Source of the DNA: an uncultured Elusimicrobia bacterium
GTDB lineage: Bacteria; Elusimicrobiota; Elusimicrobia; Elusimicrobiales; Elusimicrobiaceae
Direction: 5' to 3'
Assembly (NCBI GenBank): GCA_945913025.1
Contig: CAMECJ010000004.1
Span: 62,001-126,000, forward strand
DNA length: 64,000 bases
Position numbers and translations under genes: made by a program. Numbering within the stretch: position 1 is the stretch's first letter; each line of letters begins with the position of its first letter. Positions 10,290 to 31,446 of the stretch are shown one piece after another. The notes beneath the pieces are model-generated. The model saw only the letters and a list, made by a program, of their open reading frames with translations. It was not told the origin of the DNA and searched no databases.

Positions 10290-10335
10290 CAATATAAAGC
10301 AAAGCCGCCAAACCGTATAAGGGGGGATATATCCT

Positions 10336-10815
10336 ATGTATCAAAAGCGCGGTTTTACGTTAACAGAGCTGTTAGTCGTGGTGTTAATCACCGGCATATT
10401 ATCCGCTATCGCTTTGCCGCAGTATCAAAAGGCGGTGGAAAAAAGCCGGATTATGGCGTTAGTGCCCAATTTGCGTACGCTGAAAGATTCGTTGGAAATG
10501 TATTACTTGGCCAACGGCGTATACCCTAACGATTCGGTAACAGATTTAGATATTCATATACAAGGATGTAAATCGGAAGGACGTGGACAGTTAAATTGCG
10601 GGAACGCGTGTTTTAATTATAACGGCGGGGAAAACTTCACTTCCGACCACATTTACGCTTCCGTGGGAAATGAAAATAATTGCGGGCTGAGGAATAATGC
10701 CCGCACCGCTATCATATGGTATTTGGATTATTCAAGAGAGAATGCGGGGGAGATAAGATGTTCCAGTAAAGTTTCGGGCGTGTGTGAATCGCTAAACGGA
10801 TTATTAAAAAAGTAG
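10336..10815 (+). CDS. Type IV pilin-like protein (pilin 1)
   Basis: 159-residue class III signal-peptide protein of the PilE/PulG type. The prepilin leader is MYQKRG with cleavage expected before Phe7. The mature N-terminus FTLTELLVVVLITGILSAIA is the polymerisation helix with Glu5, followed by LPQYQKAVEKSR. The C-terminal ~110 residues share nothing obvious with the other pilins except paired cysteines. Start supported by a GGGGGGATAT block also present before pilins 2 and 4. Single-gene unit between its own promoter and terminator; no pilus assembly genes are nearby, so the machinery must be encoded elsewhere. Confidence 0.92.
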   Translation: MYQKRGFTLTELLVVVLITGILSAIALPQYQKAVEKSRIMALVPNLRTLKDSLEMYYLANGVYPNDSVTDLDIHIQGCKSEGRGQLNCGNACFNYNGGENFTSDHIYASVGNENNCGLRNNARTAIIWYLDYSRENAGEIRCSSKVSGVCESLNGLLKK

Positions 10816-21015: not shown

Positions 21016-21039
21016 CGTGTATTTAAAGGGGGATATCCC

Positions 21040-21513
21040 ATGCATCAAGAACGCGGTTTTACGCTTATAGAACTGTTGGTAGTCGTTTTAATCATCGGCA
21101 TTTTAGCCGCCGTTGCGTTGCCGCAATACCAAAAAGCGGTGTTTAAAAGCCGCGCGATGAAAGGTTATTTGTGGTTTAATAAGTTGGAAGACGCTCAAAA
21201 ACTGTTTTATTTGGCGAACGGACGGTATGCAACTTCCGCGGAAGAATTGGATTTTGATTTTAAAACCGGAACCACACTAGGATTTTCCTCCCATTTTTCT
21301 ACAAATCTCTCTATGATTTGGGATAATAGACAAAACGGTTTGTTTTGGGAATTTGGTTTCCGCCCCAACGGGAAATACGTTAAGTTTTGCGAAGCTAGTC
21401 CAAGATCGTCAAATTATGAGTATGCCAAACAATTTTGTCAGGAAATGGGCGGTGTTTACAGTCATACGGGCGGCAGCGATTCCCAAGATTATTTCATTCT
21501 TCCCAACCGCTGA
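21040..21513 (+). CDS. Type IV pilin-like protein (pilin 2)
   Basis: 157 residues. Prepilin leader MHQERG, then FTLIELLVVVLIIGILAAVA with Glu5 and LPQYQKAVFKSR. The variable part holds YLANGRYATSAEELDFDF, a block common in PilE-like minor pilins, and two Cys near the C-terminus (KFCEA, QFCQEM). Start supported by AAAGGGGGATATCCC. Its leader RNA would be about 390 nt and full of hairpins, the longest of the four pilin genes. Confidence 0.92.
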   Translation: MHQERGFTLIELLVVVLIIGILAAVALPQYQKAVFKSRAMKGYLWFNKLEDAQKLFYLANGRYATSAEELDFDFKTGTTLGFSSHFSTNLSMIWDNRQNGLFWEFGFRPNGKYVKFCEASPRSSNYEYAKQFCQEMGGVYSHTGGSDSQDYFILPNR

Positions 21514-21575: not shown

Positions 21576-22322
21576 TTATTTCAGCTGTACTTTGGCCATC
21601 ATATCGTACATAATAATGCTGGCGGCGGCCGAAGCATTCAAACTTTCCACGCCGCCTTTTTGCGGAATGGAAATAATTTCGTCGCAGTTTTCAGCCGTTT
21701 TTTCGCGGATACCAAAGCCTTCCGAACCAATTACCAGCACCGCGGGGGAGGCGTAGTCCATCGTGGTGATGGATTTGCCCGCCATATCCGCGCCGTAAAT
21801 CCAAAAACCTTCTTCTTTCAGGTCGGTCAGCGCGGCGGACAGGTTCGCCACTTCCACGATGTTGATATTTTCAATCGCGCCGCACGCTACTTTGTACACG
21901 GCGGGCGTAATGCCTACCGTACGGCGGTTGGGCAGGATAATGGTGGAAAAGCCCAAGCAGGCCGCGCTGCGGATAATGGCGCCCAGGTTTTGCGGGTCGG
22001 TCATTTCGTCCACGGCCAGCCATAAGTCTTTCTTGTTCCCGTCGGATTCGTAAATGGCGTTGGATAACTTCATCAGTTTGACGGGTTGGATTTTTGCCAT
22101 AATCCCCTGGTGGTTGGCGTTGCGGGTTAATCGGTCCAGCGTTTTGTTGTCAATACGGTCTATTTTCACGTTTTGGCGTTTGGCCAAGCGGATAATATCC
22201 TCCACCGCGCGGTGGCCGGCCTTGGAGTCGGACACATATAACTGCGTAACGTTGCGTTTTTTGCTTCTTAACGCTTCCTGTACGGGGTGGATGCCGTAAA
22301 TCATATCTAAGTTGTCGTTCAT
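21576..22322 (-). CDS. rlmB: 23S rRNA (guanosine-2'-O-)-methyltransferase, TrmH/SpoU family
   Basis: 248 residues, close to E. coli RlmB (243). N-terminal L30e-like substrate-binding domain (MIYGIHPVQEALRSKKRNV) and C-terminal SPOUT knot domain with the three family motifs: DPQNLGAIIRSAACLGFSTIILPNRRT, VIGSEGFGIR and IPQKGGVESLNASAAASIIMYD. Methylates a 23S peptidyl-transferase-loop guanosine (G2251 in E. coli) with S-adenosylmethionine. Third gene of the ispH-pfk-rlmB operon (12-nt gap). SD CAGGAG. Could also be a tRNA-acting TrmH paralogue; the N-terminal domain favours RlmB. Confidence 0.9.
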   Translation of the reverse strand: MNDNLDMIYGIHPVQEALRSKKRNVTQLYVSDSKAGHRAVEDIIRLAKRQNVKIDRIDNKTLDRLTRNANHQGIMAKIQPVKLMKLSNAIYESDGNKKDLWLAVDEMTDPQNLGAIIRSAACLGFSTIILPNRRTVGITPAVYKVACGAIENINIVEVANLSAALTDLKEEGFWIYGADMAGKSITTMDYASPAVLVIGSEGFGIREKTAENCDEIISIPQKGGVESLNASAAASIIMYDMMAKVQLK

Positions 22323-22334
22323 AAATTCTCCTGA

Positions 22335-23435
22335 TCAGCCGATTTCGGTTGAACCGAAGCTCATCCCCACTTCCAGCGCGGCGCGCACTTCTTCGCCATG
22401 CGGGTCAACGCGTTTTAAGTTGGAAATCGCATCCGAAATTTTCACTTCCGTCATTTTAAACGAGTGGAAAGCGGCCATATAACCAAATTTTTCTTCCAGC
22501 ACCATATCAAGCGCTTTGGCGCCGTAGAGGGTGGAGAGCCAGCGGTCAAACGCCGTCGGCGTGCCGCCGCGCTGGGTGTGGCCCAGTACGCAGGCGCGCG
22601 ATTCAATGCCGGTTTTGTCCTCAATCATCTGGCTTAATTTGTTGGCGATACCGCCCAAGCGGATAGCGTCCGTACTGCCGGCGACGGTGCGCGCGACGGC
22701 TTGTTCGCCCAGTTCGTTTTTGGCGCCTTCGGCGGCCACCACAAGGCTGAATGTTTTGCCTTTGCCTTTGCGGTCCAAAATGGCGTTTACGATAACGTCG
22801 TCGTTATACGGGATTTCGGGAATCAGTACGATGTCGCCCCCGCCCGCAATGGCCGAGCGCAGCGCAATCCAGCCCGCATAACGGCCCATCGTTTCCACAA
22901 TCATCACGCGGTGGTGGCTTTGGGCGGTGGTGTGCAGGCGGTCAATGGCTTCGGTGGCAATAGCCAGTGCCGAGTCGAACCCGAAGGTCTGGTCGGTGGC
23001 GGACAAATCGTTGTCAATGGTTTTGGGAACGGCCACAATCGGCATACCCATATCCACAAATTGCTGGGACATGTGAAGCGTGCCGTCGCCCCCTACGGTA
23101 ATCAGCGCGTCCAAACGGTTTTCTTTAAAATTGTGGAAAGCAACGGACGACAAATCCCGCGGCGTTTCGGGCGATCCGAACGGCGGCAGTGTGTAATTAA
23201 ACGGGTTGGCGATGTTGCTGGAACCCAAAATGGTGCCGCCCAACGTTAAAATGCCGGAAACGGTTTCGTTGTTAATGCGGATAAATTCGTTGCGGACGAG
23301 GCCGTCAAATCCGTTTTTAAACCCCAGCACTTCAATCCCGTGCAACAGCGCATTTTTGCTGACTGCGCGTACGACGGCGTTTAAGCCGGGGCAGTCTCCG
23401 CCGGCGGTCAAAATCCCTATCTTTTTAATACTCAT
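22335..23435 (-). CDS. pfkA: 6-phosphofructokinase
   Basis: Phosphorylates fructose-6-phosphate in glycolysis. 366 residues: GILTAGGDCPGLNA (nucleotide loop), GGDGT, PKTIDND (catalytic Asp), ETMGRYAGW (substrate). Phosphate donor: Gly in GGDGT (position 104 in E. coli) points to ATP, because PPi enzymes have GGDD. The Lys in PKTIDND, where E. coli has Gly, is shared with PPi-dependent and group III enzymes. The pair suggests a group III ATP-type enzyme, though PPi use cannot be excluded from sequence. Between ispH (18-nt gap) and rlmB. Confidence 0.92.
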   Translation of the reverse strand: MSIKKIGILTAGGDCPGLNAVVRAVSKNALLHGIEVLGFKNGFDGLVRNEFIRINNETVSGILTLGGTILGSSNIANPFNYTLPPFGSPETPRDLSSVAFHNFKENRLDALITVGGDGTLHMSQQFVDMGMPIVAVPKTIDNDLSATDQTFGFDSALAIATEAIDRLHTTAQSHHRVMIVETMGRYAGWIALRSAIAGGGDIVLIPEIPYNDDVIVNAILDRKGKGKTFSLVVAAEGAKNELGEQAVARTVAGSTDAIRLGGIANKLSQMIEDKTGIESRACVLGHTQRGGTPTAFDRWLSTLYGAKALDMVLEEKFGYMAAFHSFKMTEVKISDAISNLKRVDPHGEEVRAALEVGMSFGSTEIG

Positions 23436-23453: not shown

Positions 23454-25142
23454 TTACAGCAGCGCGGCCAAACCGCTTAATGCCCACAGAACGAAGAACT
23501 GCCCGTCCACCAGCGTTTCATCCTTCACGCTGCGTGTGGAACTTCTGCCATAATAATATATTACTATAAAAATCGTGTACAGGTCGCCGATGAGCAGCAT
23601 TGTGACGAGCGCGGGTTTCCACGTCAGCGTACACAAGGTGGCCAGCGCGGCGGTCAGCGAAGCCAAAATAAGCGTTACGGCCCATTTGGTTTTTTTCATA
23701 CCGAAAGCTTTATAAAAATTTTCGCGGCCGATGATCATATCTTTATTGGCGGAAGAAAATCCCAGCGTAACCGTACGCATAAAGACCAGGAGCATTGTAT
23801 ATACAATCGCCAAATAAGCGGCCTTGCGCGATAACAGCCCGTAATGGTACGCGGGTAAAAACGCACACGCAAACGCCCAGCCGAGCGCGGTGGCAAAATC
23901 CTTCGTTCCGGGAAGCGGCGGCAGCTGGGCCGTGATTACATTGCGAAACGGATAGAAAAATCCCGCCGCCAACAGTACGGCGCATAAAGCGAGTGTTTTT
24001 GCGCCCAGCCAAGCGGAAATGCCCAGCGCGCCTGCCGCACAGATAAAACTGGCCGTACGGAGAAATGTTTTGTTTTTAGCGTATGAGGCTTCAGTCGATC
24101 GGTTAAAAGCCGTTCCCGCAAACACAAACAGCCACGCAAAAGTAATCAGCCGCCAATCCGTATGCACGCCTTCCAAACGCATACATACGCAGGCGAGCGC
24201 CGCGGCTGCGGAAGCGGTGTAAAACGCGTTTTTTACTAAAAAATGCCAGCCTTTCTGCAGCACGCGCAGGACGGTTTTTGAGCCGGTTTTGCGCAGTTCT
24301 CTTACGCGTGCGGCCACGCGGTCAATTACCCAGTTGGGGGTGGAAGCGCCGGCCGTGATAAAAATTTTCTTCGCGCGGAGCACTTGTTCCGTTTCCAGTT
24401 CGTCCTCGGTTTCCACGTGTTGTACGCGGGGGCAAAGCCCTTGGCACAGCAGCGCCAAGCGCGCGGTGTTTGCGCTGTGTTTGCCGCCTACAACGATAAC
24501 CAAATCCGCCTGTTTCGCCAGTTCGACGGTTTCTTTTTGACGGTCTTTGGTCGGCTGGCAGATGGTGTTGGAAATTTGACATTCGTCCGCGTGTTTTTTG
24601 ATTTCTTCGGCGGCCGCGTAAAAATCGCTTTCTTTTTGGGTGGTTTGAGAGACGACGTTTACCTTATCAAAATGCGGCAGTTTGGCGGCTTCTTCGGCTC
24701 CGGCTACTACGGTCCCGTTGCCTTTCGCGTACCCCAACAGACCGATTACTTCGGCGTGGCCGCCGTCGCCCACGATAACCGTATGATATCCTTGGGCCGC
24801 AAATTTAGCGATGATGTTTTGCGCGTGTTTCACAAGCGGGCAGGTGGCGTCCACCACTTCCATCCCGTGTGTTTCCACGTCTTTTTGAAATTCGGGCGTA
24901 ATACCGTGCGCGCGGATAACCAGCACGCCGGATTTATCGGCTGCGTCCTGCGGGGCCTCAATAGCGGTAATCTGTTTGGCGGCCAGCATATCGGTAACTT
25001 GTTTGTTGTGAATCAGCGGGCCGATGGTATAAACGGGTTTTTTGCCGGCGGCTTCCAATTCCAGCACCTTATCAATGGCGCGTTTGACCCCCGGGCAAAA
25101 TCCTGCGCTTTTGGCAACGGTAACGTCCTGTTCTTTTTCCAT
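23454..25142 (-). CDS. ispH: IspH (HMBPP reductase) fused to a UbiA-like membrane domain
   Basis: 562 residues. Residues 1-~285 are the MEP-pathway enzyme that makes IPP and DMAPP with a [4Fe-4S] cluster: the three cluster cysteines are in AGFCPGVKRA (Cys16), DATCPLV and NTICQPT, with HAEVIGL and AGASTPNWVI also present. Residues ~290-562 contain about nine hydrophobic helices, the number in UbiA prenyltransferases. A Phe-Asn-Arg segment (GTAFNRSTEA) stands where NDxxD is expected, and NKDMIIGRENFYKAFG where the second Asp motif is expected. The first motif has lost its aspartates, so prenyl transfer is doubtful. Usual IspH ends near 310 residues. First gene of the operon; apparently leaderless. 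Confidence 0.9.
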   Translation of the reverse strand: MEKEQDVTVAKSAGFCPGVKRAIDKVLELEAAGKKPVYTIGPLIHNKQVTDMLAAKQITAIEAPQDAADKSGVLVIRAHGITPEFQKDVETHGMEVVDATCPLVKHAQNIIAKFAAQGYHTVIVGDGGHAEVIGLLGYAKGNGTVVAGAEEAAKLPHFDKVNVVSQTTQKESDFYAAAEEIKKHADECQISNTICQPTKDRQKETVELAKQADLVIVVGGKHSANTARLALLCQGLCPRVQHVETEDELETEQVLRAKKIFITAGASTPNWVIDRVAARVRELRKTGSKTVLRVLQKGWHFLVKNAFYTASAAAALACVCMRLEGVHTDWRLITFAWLFVFAGTAFNRSTEASYAKNKTFLRTASFICAAGALGISAWLGAKTLALCAVLLAAGFFYPFRNVITAQLPPLPGTKDFATALGWAFACAFLPAYHYGLLSRKAAYLAIVYTMLLVFMRTVTLGFSSANKDMIIGRENFYKAFGMKKTKWAVTLILASLTAALATLCTLTWKPALVTMLLIGDLYTIFIVIYYYGRSSTRSVKDETLVDGQFFVLWALSGLAALL

Positions 25143-25255: not shown

Positions 25256-25258
25256 AGG

Positions 25259-25350
25259 GTTATCCCGTAGTGTTTCTGTGCGAGATCTCCCGATTAGGGT
25301 TTGTTCGCTTAAAATCGGTAGAATCTGTGCAGAAACATCGCAGGATAACT
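25259..25350. repeat. Dispersed mosaic repeat, copy 7 (pilin 3 leader)
   Basis: GTTATCCCGTAGTGTTTCTG ... ATCTCCCGATT ... AAAATCGGTAGAATC ... AACATCGCAGGATAAC. The same layout as the unit at 20646 (shared GTTTCTGTGCG(G/A)GATCTCCCGATT). Confidence 0.7.
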
Positions 25351-25359
25351 TTTTATAAT

Positions 25360-25884
25360 ATGAAAGGTTTTACGTTTGGCCGTCATCCTGAATTTATTTC
25401 AGGATCCAATAAACAAGGTTTTACCTTAATCGAATTATTGGTTGTCGTATTAATTATCGGTATTTTGGCTTCTGTGGCGTTGCCGCAATACCAGAAGGCG
25501 GTGCTCAAAAGCCGTGCCTCGGAAGCGTGGGTAAACTTGAAAAACATCAATACGGCCGTGCATGCGTATTGCTTGGAAAATCCGGGCGCGTCTGTATCTT
25601 TTGATGAAGATCCATTGGACCTTTTAGATATTGAAATATCAAATTCTAAAAATTTTTCTTATGGCGGAGCGATCGCCTGTTTTTCGTCGTCTTACATGCA
25701 CAGTATTGATGCAACGTGGCAAGGCGGGGGAAATAAAAATTTTGCTTTGGCTATTAACCCCAAGACGGGCCGCCGTTCTTGTGGAGGGGCGGATTGTAAG
25801 GATTTGGGGTTTACTAAAGCTTCTTCGGACTACGAAAATGTTTGTTTGTGTGGCGGGTTCGAGATCTGCTACTACGCAGATTAG
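25360..25884 (+). CDS. Type IV pilin-like protein (pilin 3) with repeat-derived leader
   Basis: 174 residues from ATG 25360. The prepilin leader MKGFTFGRHPEFISGSNKQG is 20 residues; its HPEFISGS part is encoded by an inverted repeat (25381-25407, ATCCTGAA-TTTA-TTTCAGGAT). Mature FTLIELLVVVLIIGILASVA and LPQYQKAVLKSRASEAW follow. The variable domain has five to six Cys near its C-terminus (RRSCGGADCKDLG, VCLCGGFEICYY). The frame stays open up to 25270, but an upstream start would sit within ~10 bases of the promoter. Only a weak AGGA precedes 25360, so the start is less certain than for the other pilins. Confidence 0.88.
   Translation: MKGFTFGRHPEFISGSNKQGFTLIELLVVVLIIGILASVALPQYQKAVLKSRASEAWVNLKNINTAVHAYCLENPGASVSFDEDPLDLLDIEISNSKNFSYGGAIACFSSSYMHSIDATWQGGGNKNFALAINPKTGRRSCGGADCKDLGFTKASSDYENVCLCGGFEICYYAD
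25380..25407. repeat. Short inverted repeat inside the pilin 3 leader codons
   Basis: GTCATCCTGAA-TTTA-TTTCAGGATCC. A near-identical unit is at 54436-54463 in non-coding DNA, and its right half (TATTTCAGGATCCAATAAA) recurs in pilin 4 at ~30916-30934. Confidence 0.75.
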
Positions 25885-30688: not shown

Positions 30689-30791
30689 GTCATCCCGTAA
30701 GAGCCTGCCCCGTAAGGTAGTTATGCGGGGTTGTAATATGGGAGCTGTTGTTTTAAACGGCAGATTCCGTGTTACGTCCTCACGGAATGAC
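30689..30791. repeat. Dispersed mosaic repeat, copy 8 (pilin 4 leader)
   Basis: GTCATCCCGTAAGAGCCTGCCCC ... GCTGTTGTTTTAAACGGCAGATTCCG ... CACGGAATGACGAC. It has the same core link TGTTGTT...CAGATTCC as copies 2 and 3. Confidence 0.7.
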
Positions 30792-30813
30792 GACGCATAC
30801 GGGGGATATTGCT

Positions 30814-31446
30814 ATGTATCAAACGCTTGGTTGTACGCGTTGGTCTCATTATAAACTGACGCTTTTTGCGCTTAGCGTTACTCCGGAAGGCTGTAATCCG
30901 AAGTCTGGTTATAGTATTTCAGGATCCAATAAAATGGGGTTTACGCTGATTGAGTTATTAGTGGTGGTACTCATTGTCGGTATTTTAGCGTCGGTTGCGC
31001 TGCCGTCGTATAACCGCGCCGTGCTGCGGGTTCATTATCGGGAGGCGCAAACATTGGCGCGTTCTTTCGCCTTGGCTGCCGCAAGGTATGATTTAGCCAA
31101 CGGTGCGCCGCCATATTATTGGGGAGATCTGGATTTGGGCGTGCCTTCCGGATGTTCGGCTCCCGATACCGTTTCGGAAGGATGGATGTCCTGTGCGAAT
31201 GACCGTGTAATGTGTGATTTATTGATAGGAGGAGAAAAAGTTGTAGTTTGCGTTTATTACTCTAAATCCGGTTTTACCATTGCACACGCGGAGTATTTGG
31301 GCAATCATACACCGCAGCGAGAGTGCTGGGCCAACTCAAAAAATCCGGCAGCTGAAGCCGTATGCCAATCAATGGGCGGCGTGAAAAACGGCTCTTCCGG
31401 TCACTCCGTTTGTCTTAAGGACGGATGCAGCGTATATTCCCTTTAA
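30814..31446 (+). CDS. Type IV pilin-like protein (pilin 4) with a 42-residue repeat-derived leader
   Basis: 210 residues from ATG 30814, which has the same GGGGGATAT upstream block and MYQ start as pilins 1 and 2. The predicted prepilin leader is 42 residues instead of 6: MYQ is followed by about 38 residues encoded largely by mosaic-repeat sequence (LSVTPEGCNPKSGY, ISGSNKMG). Mature FTLIELLVVVLIVGILASVA then follows, with LPSYNRAVLRVHYREAQ. The variable domain is Cys-rich (CSAPD, MSCAND, VMCDLL, ECWANS, VCQSMGG, CLKDGCSVY). A frame start at 30769 lies inside the repeat and is less likely. Confidence 0.88.
   Translation: MYQTLGCTRWSHYKLTLFALSVTPEGCNPKSGYSISGSNKMGFTLIELLVVVLIVGILASVALPSYNRAVLRVHYREAQTLARSFALAAARYDLANGAPPYYWGDLDLGVPSGCSAPDTVSEGWMSCANDRVMCDLLIGGEKVVVCVYYSKSGFTIAHAEYLGNHTPQRECWANSKNPAAEAVCQSMGGVKNGSSGHSVCLKDGCSVYSL

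Follow-up and report, generated by a model that had tools for sequence, protein, structure and literature searches.

An IspH–UbiA-fold fusion protein with a remodelled second active-site motif in Elusimicrobiota

Background

Why an elusimicrobial bacterium should carry its HMBPP reductase (IspH) on the same chain as a nine-helix membrane domain, and what that domain contributes, is the question raised by one open reading frame in the 64,000-nucleotide stretch of genomic DNA analysed here (the window). IspH catalyses the final step of isoprenoid synthesis in bacteria, and three cysteines hold its 4Fe-4S cluster.

An earlier note on this DNA regarded known IspH fusions as different, which has to be corrected, since IspH-UbiA fusions of identical domain order were published in 2015 (PMC4746011). 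Rao et al. 2015 reported 47 such 'Rosetta stone' fusions, from sulfate reducers alone, in which the domain PT_UbiA_5 carries two DXXXD motifs; the UbiA part was without known function, a prenyltransferase role was suggested for it, and the full-length active protein was not obtained (PMC4746011). The term IspH-UbiA is also used in a 2025 paper on Apicomplexa. IspH-RPS1 fusions likewise have an IspH with a C-terminal extension, their partner being ribosomal protein S1, which has no membrane domain. A literature search, thin on subscription journals and thus no proof of novelty, found nothing joining Elusimicrobia, isoprenoids and IspH.

The fused gene and its IspH half

The frame encodes a single chain in which a complete N-terminal IspH is followed by a C-terminal domain that has nine helices and the UbiA fold (Table 1). 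Synteny comparison showed that the adjacency of pfk and ispH is kept across the genus and family, in relatives with the fusion and in those without it, with the SpoU/TrmH-type methyltransferase gene as third in the conserved order. No gene for a prenylation partner was found among the neighbours of the fusion gene, which are pfk and the SpoU methyltransferase gene. Four separate type IV pilin-like genes lie on the plus strand (10321-10812, 21016-21510, 25258-25881 and 30757-31443), all with the prepilin signature GFTLxELLVVVLI; one of them begins about 120 bases past where the fusion gene starts and is encoded on the opposite strand.

Table 1. Features of the fusion locus, with positions counted from the first nucleotide of the window
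Feature	Positions	Strand	Basis and remarks
Fused open reading frame	23454..25142	minus	ATG start; 562 aa; no internal stops
IspH (HMBPP reductase) domain, residues ~1-280	24303..25142	minus	PF02401; fold match; cluster cysteines C16, C101, C195
UbiA-fold nine-TM C-terminal domain, residues ~287-562	23457..24284	minus	AF2 fold matches; hhalign
Motif 1, F346-A352 (FNRSTEA)	24087..24107	minus	N347 and E351 at AfUbiA N68 and D72; R348 replaces D69
Remodelled motif 2, S464-A479 (SANKDMIIGRENFYKA)	23706..23753	minus	D468 = AfUbiA D202; S464 replaces D198; lineage-specific Y477-K478
Phosphofructokinase gene (pfk)	22335..23435	minus	PF00365, E 8.4e-100; downstream of the fusion gene, gap of 18 bases
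SpoU/TrmH-type RNA 2'-O-methyltransferase gene	21576..22322	minus	PF00588, E 3.4e-43

The LYTB/IspH profile PF02401 aligned to residues 7-280 over 266 of its 267 positions (E 3.7e-86), and IspH crystal structures (3dnf among them) were the fold match of the N-terminal half. The three cluster cysteines were invariant in all 80 aligned fusions, made up of 66 Elusimicrobiota sequences and 14 from other phyla, the set on which all residue counts below are based. The description of the first ~285 residues as a complete HMBPP reductase with three cluster cysteines is thus borne out. As no other LYTB match occurs in the window's genome, which is 97% complete, the fusion is probably the working HMBPP reductase of the cell.

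Identity of the C-terminal half

The nine helices and weak UbiA pattern read earlier from the C-terminal half were both recovered. Nine transmembrane-length helices were present in the C-terminal ~275 residues of two AF2 models of modest confidence (mean pLDDT 68 and 67, lowest near motif 2), and the Pfam UbiA profile (PF01040) scored the window copy at 9.8 bits (E 0.59), below the gathering cut-off of 34.2. The proposed profile check therefore gave a divided result: the window copy stayed under the cut-off, and homologous fusions from other phyla passed it (L109 with 46.6 bits, others with up to 65.9 bits). Neither NCBIfam nor Pfam gave the C-terminal half of the window copy any match above cut-off. 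At E <= 0.001, no Pfam UbiA match was found in the window's genome (G000, 97% complete), and all 14 control genomes had one. UbiA was matched by 12 of 25 relatives (best 2.3e-6) and by 11 of 15 in a second set (best 1.9e-14), and was the sole family matched by many.

In hhalign, a profile built from the wider family of fusions aligned to canonical UbiAs (cleaned set) with a probability of 97.5% and an E-value of 7.2e-12, against a probability of 23% for a profile of Elusimicrobiota only; it is therefore the wider family and the fold that carry the UbiA assignment. A Foldseek search of the PDB with an AF2 model placed UbiA-superfamily structures first (4od4, 4od5 and 4tq5, at TM 0.60-0.66 with E-values of at least 0.013), and the Rv3806c structures 8j8j/8j8k were also among the fold matches. 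In a PDB sequence search with the Elusimicrobiota profile the sole match was a sialyltransferase, taken as chance; with the fusions of other phyla added, 4tq3 came first, weakly (E 0.087).

On the strength of the structure matches, the profile comparison and transitivity through the fusions that exceed the Pfam cut-off, we conclude that the C-terminal half has a UbiA fold and shares common descent with UbiA. The comparison of predicted structures called for by the earlier note thus returned UbiA homologues and not an unrelated permease family, the outcome it had named as a refutation. Although Pfam and NCBIfam leave the window copy without a match above cut-off, membership in such a permease family is extremely improbable and in effect refuted by Foldseek, whose best matches include no permeases, by the Pfam matches of the relatives and by hhalign.

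Active-site residues and selection

The Mg ligands of AfUbiA are N68, D72, D198 and D202, and the equivalent residues of EcMenA are required for activity (PMC4106721). In the fusion these positions correspond to N347, E351, S464 and D468, as mapped by hhalign for motif 1 and by HMM alignment to 4tq3 for motif 2. Within Elusimicrobiota, N347 was found in 66/66 sequences and an acidic E351 at the D72 position in 60/66. The earlier note had stressed that the first motif is FNRSTEA and not NDxxD; the motif is indeed there, but the replaced D69 (R348) is not a Mg ligand, and N347 and E351 hold the ligand positions. Judged by these alignments, FNRSTEA keeps the Asn of the first ligand position and has an acidic residue at the second, and the consistent loss lies in motif 2. 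There D468 was kept in 66/66, but Asp at the D198 position (464) occurred in 0/66, leaving the DxxxD pair incomplete; Asp was present at position 464 in 12 of the 14 fusions from other phyla. This substitution (S464 for D198), absent from the earlier note, is the more telling loss.

Other residues kept in Elusimicrobiota were R456 and E542 (66/66 each), D415 (65/66) and K414 (64/66), together with Y477 and K478 (64/66 each), which form a lineage-specific FYK motif. The active-site Tyr of AfUbiA (Y139) corresponds to Y397, which was Y in 64 sequences and F in two of the 66. The conserved N347, D415, R456, D468 and E542 lie at helix ends or in loops, on the same side as the UbiA active site. In pairs of close relatives dN/dS was 0.04-0.12 for the C-terminal half and 0.03-0.10 for IspH, values that are rough as some dS exceeded 1. 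The C-terminal half is under purifying selection of almost the same strength as IspH, and its active site is remodelled rather than decayed.

The domain therefore resembles canonical UbiAs (AfUbiA 4tq3, ApUbiA 4od5, EcMenA) in fold, motif positions, the Asn of motif 1, the second Asp of motif 2 and the active-site Tyr, and differs from them in D69->R348, D72->E351, the loss of D76, D198->S464, its fusion to IspH and, for the window copy, a score under the Pfam cut-off. It shares with the fusions of Rao et al. 2015 a single chain with N-terminal IspH and a C-terminal nine-TM UbiA-like domain; unlike them, it comes from Elusimicrobiota, has NRxxE as motif 1 and no first Asp in motif 2, and does not have the pair of DXXXD motifs in its UbiA part.

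In a sub-lineage of the sister family (L074, L075, L076, L114) the UbiA half is more eroded (L075, for example, has NRSFEKE and HNDIIISQQSII), which may represent another path to its loss.

Distribution and history of the fusion

The fused frame was found in 93 of 341 Elusimicrobiota genomes, mostly as open frames of ~560-590 residues, a few being longer or running to contig ends. Since the same frame recurs in so many genomes, the fusion is no chance or assembly artefact, and it is the usual IspH of the order Elusimicrobiales. Named relatives were Elusimicrobia or records titled 'uncultured bacterium'. A profile search of 394 genomes gave matches in five genomes outside Elusimicrobiota; searches of the five phyla that these represent then gave matches in 3/3, 1/1, 7/7, 15/17 and 1/1 genomes, and the IspH part was directly confirmed in 14 of these sequences. 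The suggested survey of conservation thus extends the fusion to at least five phyla beyond Elusimicrobiota.

In the IspH tree, the sampled unfused IspHs of the window's genus formed one clade nested among fused ones (support 100/99), with pfk directly after ispH as it is after the fusion in the window; on these two grounds, the UbiA domain was cleanly deleted once within this genus. Deeper in the tree long branches meet, and the forks give no decision on a single or multiple, transferred or inherited origin. In a genome from a different family of the class (G185), a fused IspH is accompanied by a second IspH whose frame is shorter (G185:C73, G185:C87), a pairing that would be consistent with the fused gene having been transferred.

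Possible functions of the UbiA-fold domain

Tethering of IspH to the membrane, as the earlier note supposed, follows from the anatomy of the fusion. The accompanying suggestion of a prenyl-transfer step is doubtful, since every Elusimicrobiota copy lacks one of the four Mg ligands essential in EcMenA; a regulatory role or altered chemistry is more likely than a canonical prenyltransferase.

A coupling role is proposed by analogy with UBIAD1, a UbiA-fold protein that acts as a GGPP sensor in the control of HMG-CoA reductase (PMC9579336). In animals, too, a reductase feeding the isoprenoid pathway has a physical link to a UbiA-fold protein, but UBIAD1 and HMG-CoA reductase are separate proteins of a different pathway, and the likeness is one of arrangement alone. 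UBIAD1 is also the MK-4 synthase. In the fusion, the C-terminal domain would keep the sole HMBPP reductase on the cytoplasmic side of the membrane and may still bind an isoprenoid (di)phosphate in a cytoplasm-facing pocket through N347, E351, D468, K414 and R456, its metal chemistry presumably remodelled. Its main role would be to link what IspH produces to membrane isoprenoid status, by local delivery or feedback sensing. That the domain is such an isoprenoid-phosphate-binding sensor or coupling module, rather than the site of canonical two-metal prenyl transfer, is quite plausible and is the reading tentatively adopted here.

It is also possible, if held with more reserve, that the domain is an active non-canonical transferase using a single metal (N347/E351) together with D468, R456, K414 and the FYK motif. 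With comparable reserve, the group moved might be passed to, or taken from, a prenyl or polyprenyl phosphate, in the way that Rv3806c acts with PRPP and decaprenyl phosphate, and IspH would feed the pathway locally. Rv3806c, a decaprenyl-phosphate phosphoribosyltransferase of UbiA-like fold, has one resolved Mg, whose ligands are Asn73 and Asp77 of motif 1 (PMC10994848), the positions equivalent to the Asn and acidic residue of the fusion, although it carries no IspH. As the acidic motif 1 ligand is conserved in kind and Rv3806c works with one resolved Mg, catalysis is still conceivable. Strong selection on the active-site positions, the newly conserved Y477-K478, the presence of 8j8j/8j8k among the fold matches and the prenyltransferase role put forward by Rao et al. 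2015 all speak for a transferase; the absence of an acceptor gene or pathway next to the fusion, and the deletion of the domain in a clade of the same genus that retained the neighbouring genes, speak against it.

Decidedly unlikely is a mere membrane anchor, that is, a dead prenyltransferase kept to localise IspH. One Mg ligand has gone phylum-wide, the first Asp motif is altered too and one gut clade does without the domain, as such an anchor would allow; but the polar pocket residues on the active-site side are invariant across 66 sequences, which an inert anchor would not require, and a plain anchor under selection would keep its hydrophobicity instead, not residues held nearly as strongly as those of IspH.

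Implications

The fusion is of a published kind, in a lineage absent from Rao et al. 2015 and with an active site remodelled across that lineage. New here are its standing as the usual IspH of Elusimicrobiales, its presence in at least five further phyla and the loss of the first Asp of motif 2 in Elusimicrobiota. The coupling reading could be taken further, by the same analogy, to an isoprenoid-phosphate receptor that would regulate its own fused IspH as a single-chain bacterial counterpart of UBIAD1 sensing, though this narrower form is rather doubtful. At least six phyla have a UbiA-fold domain covalently joined to an essential enzyme of isoprenoid synthesis, and one genus offers a natural experiment, with the remodelled domain under selection beside its clean deletion, so that swaps in a heterologous host could test the role of the domain directly.
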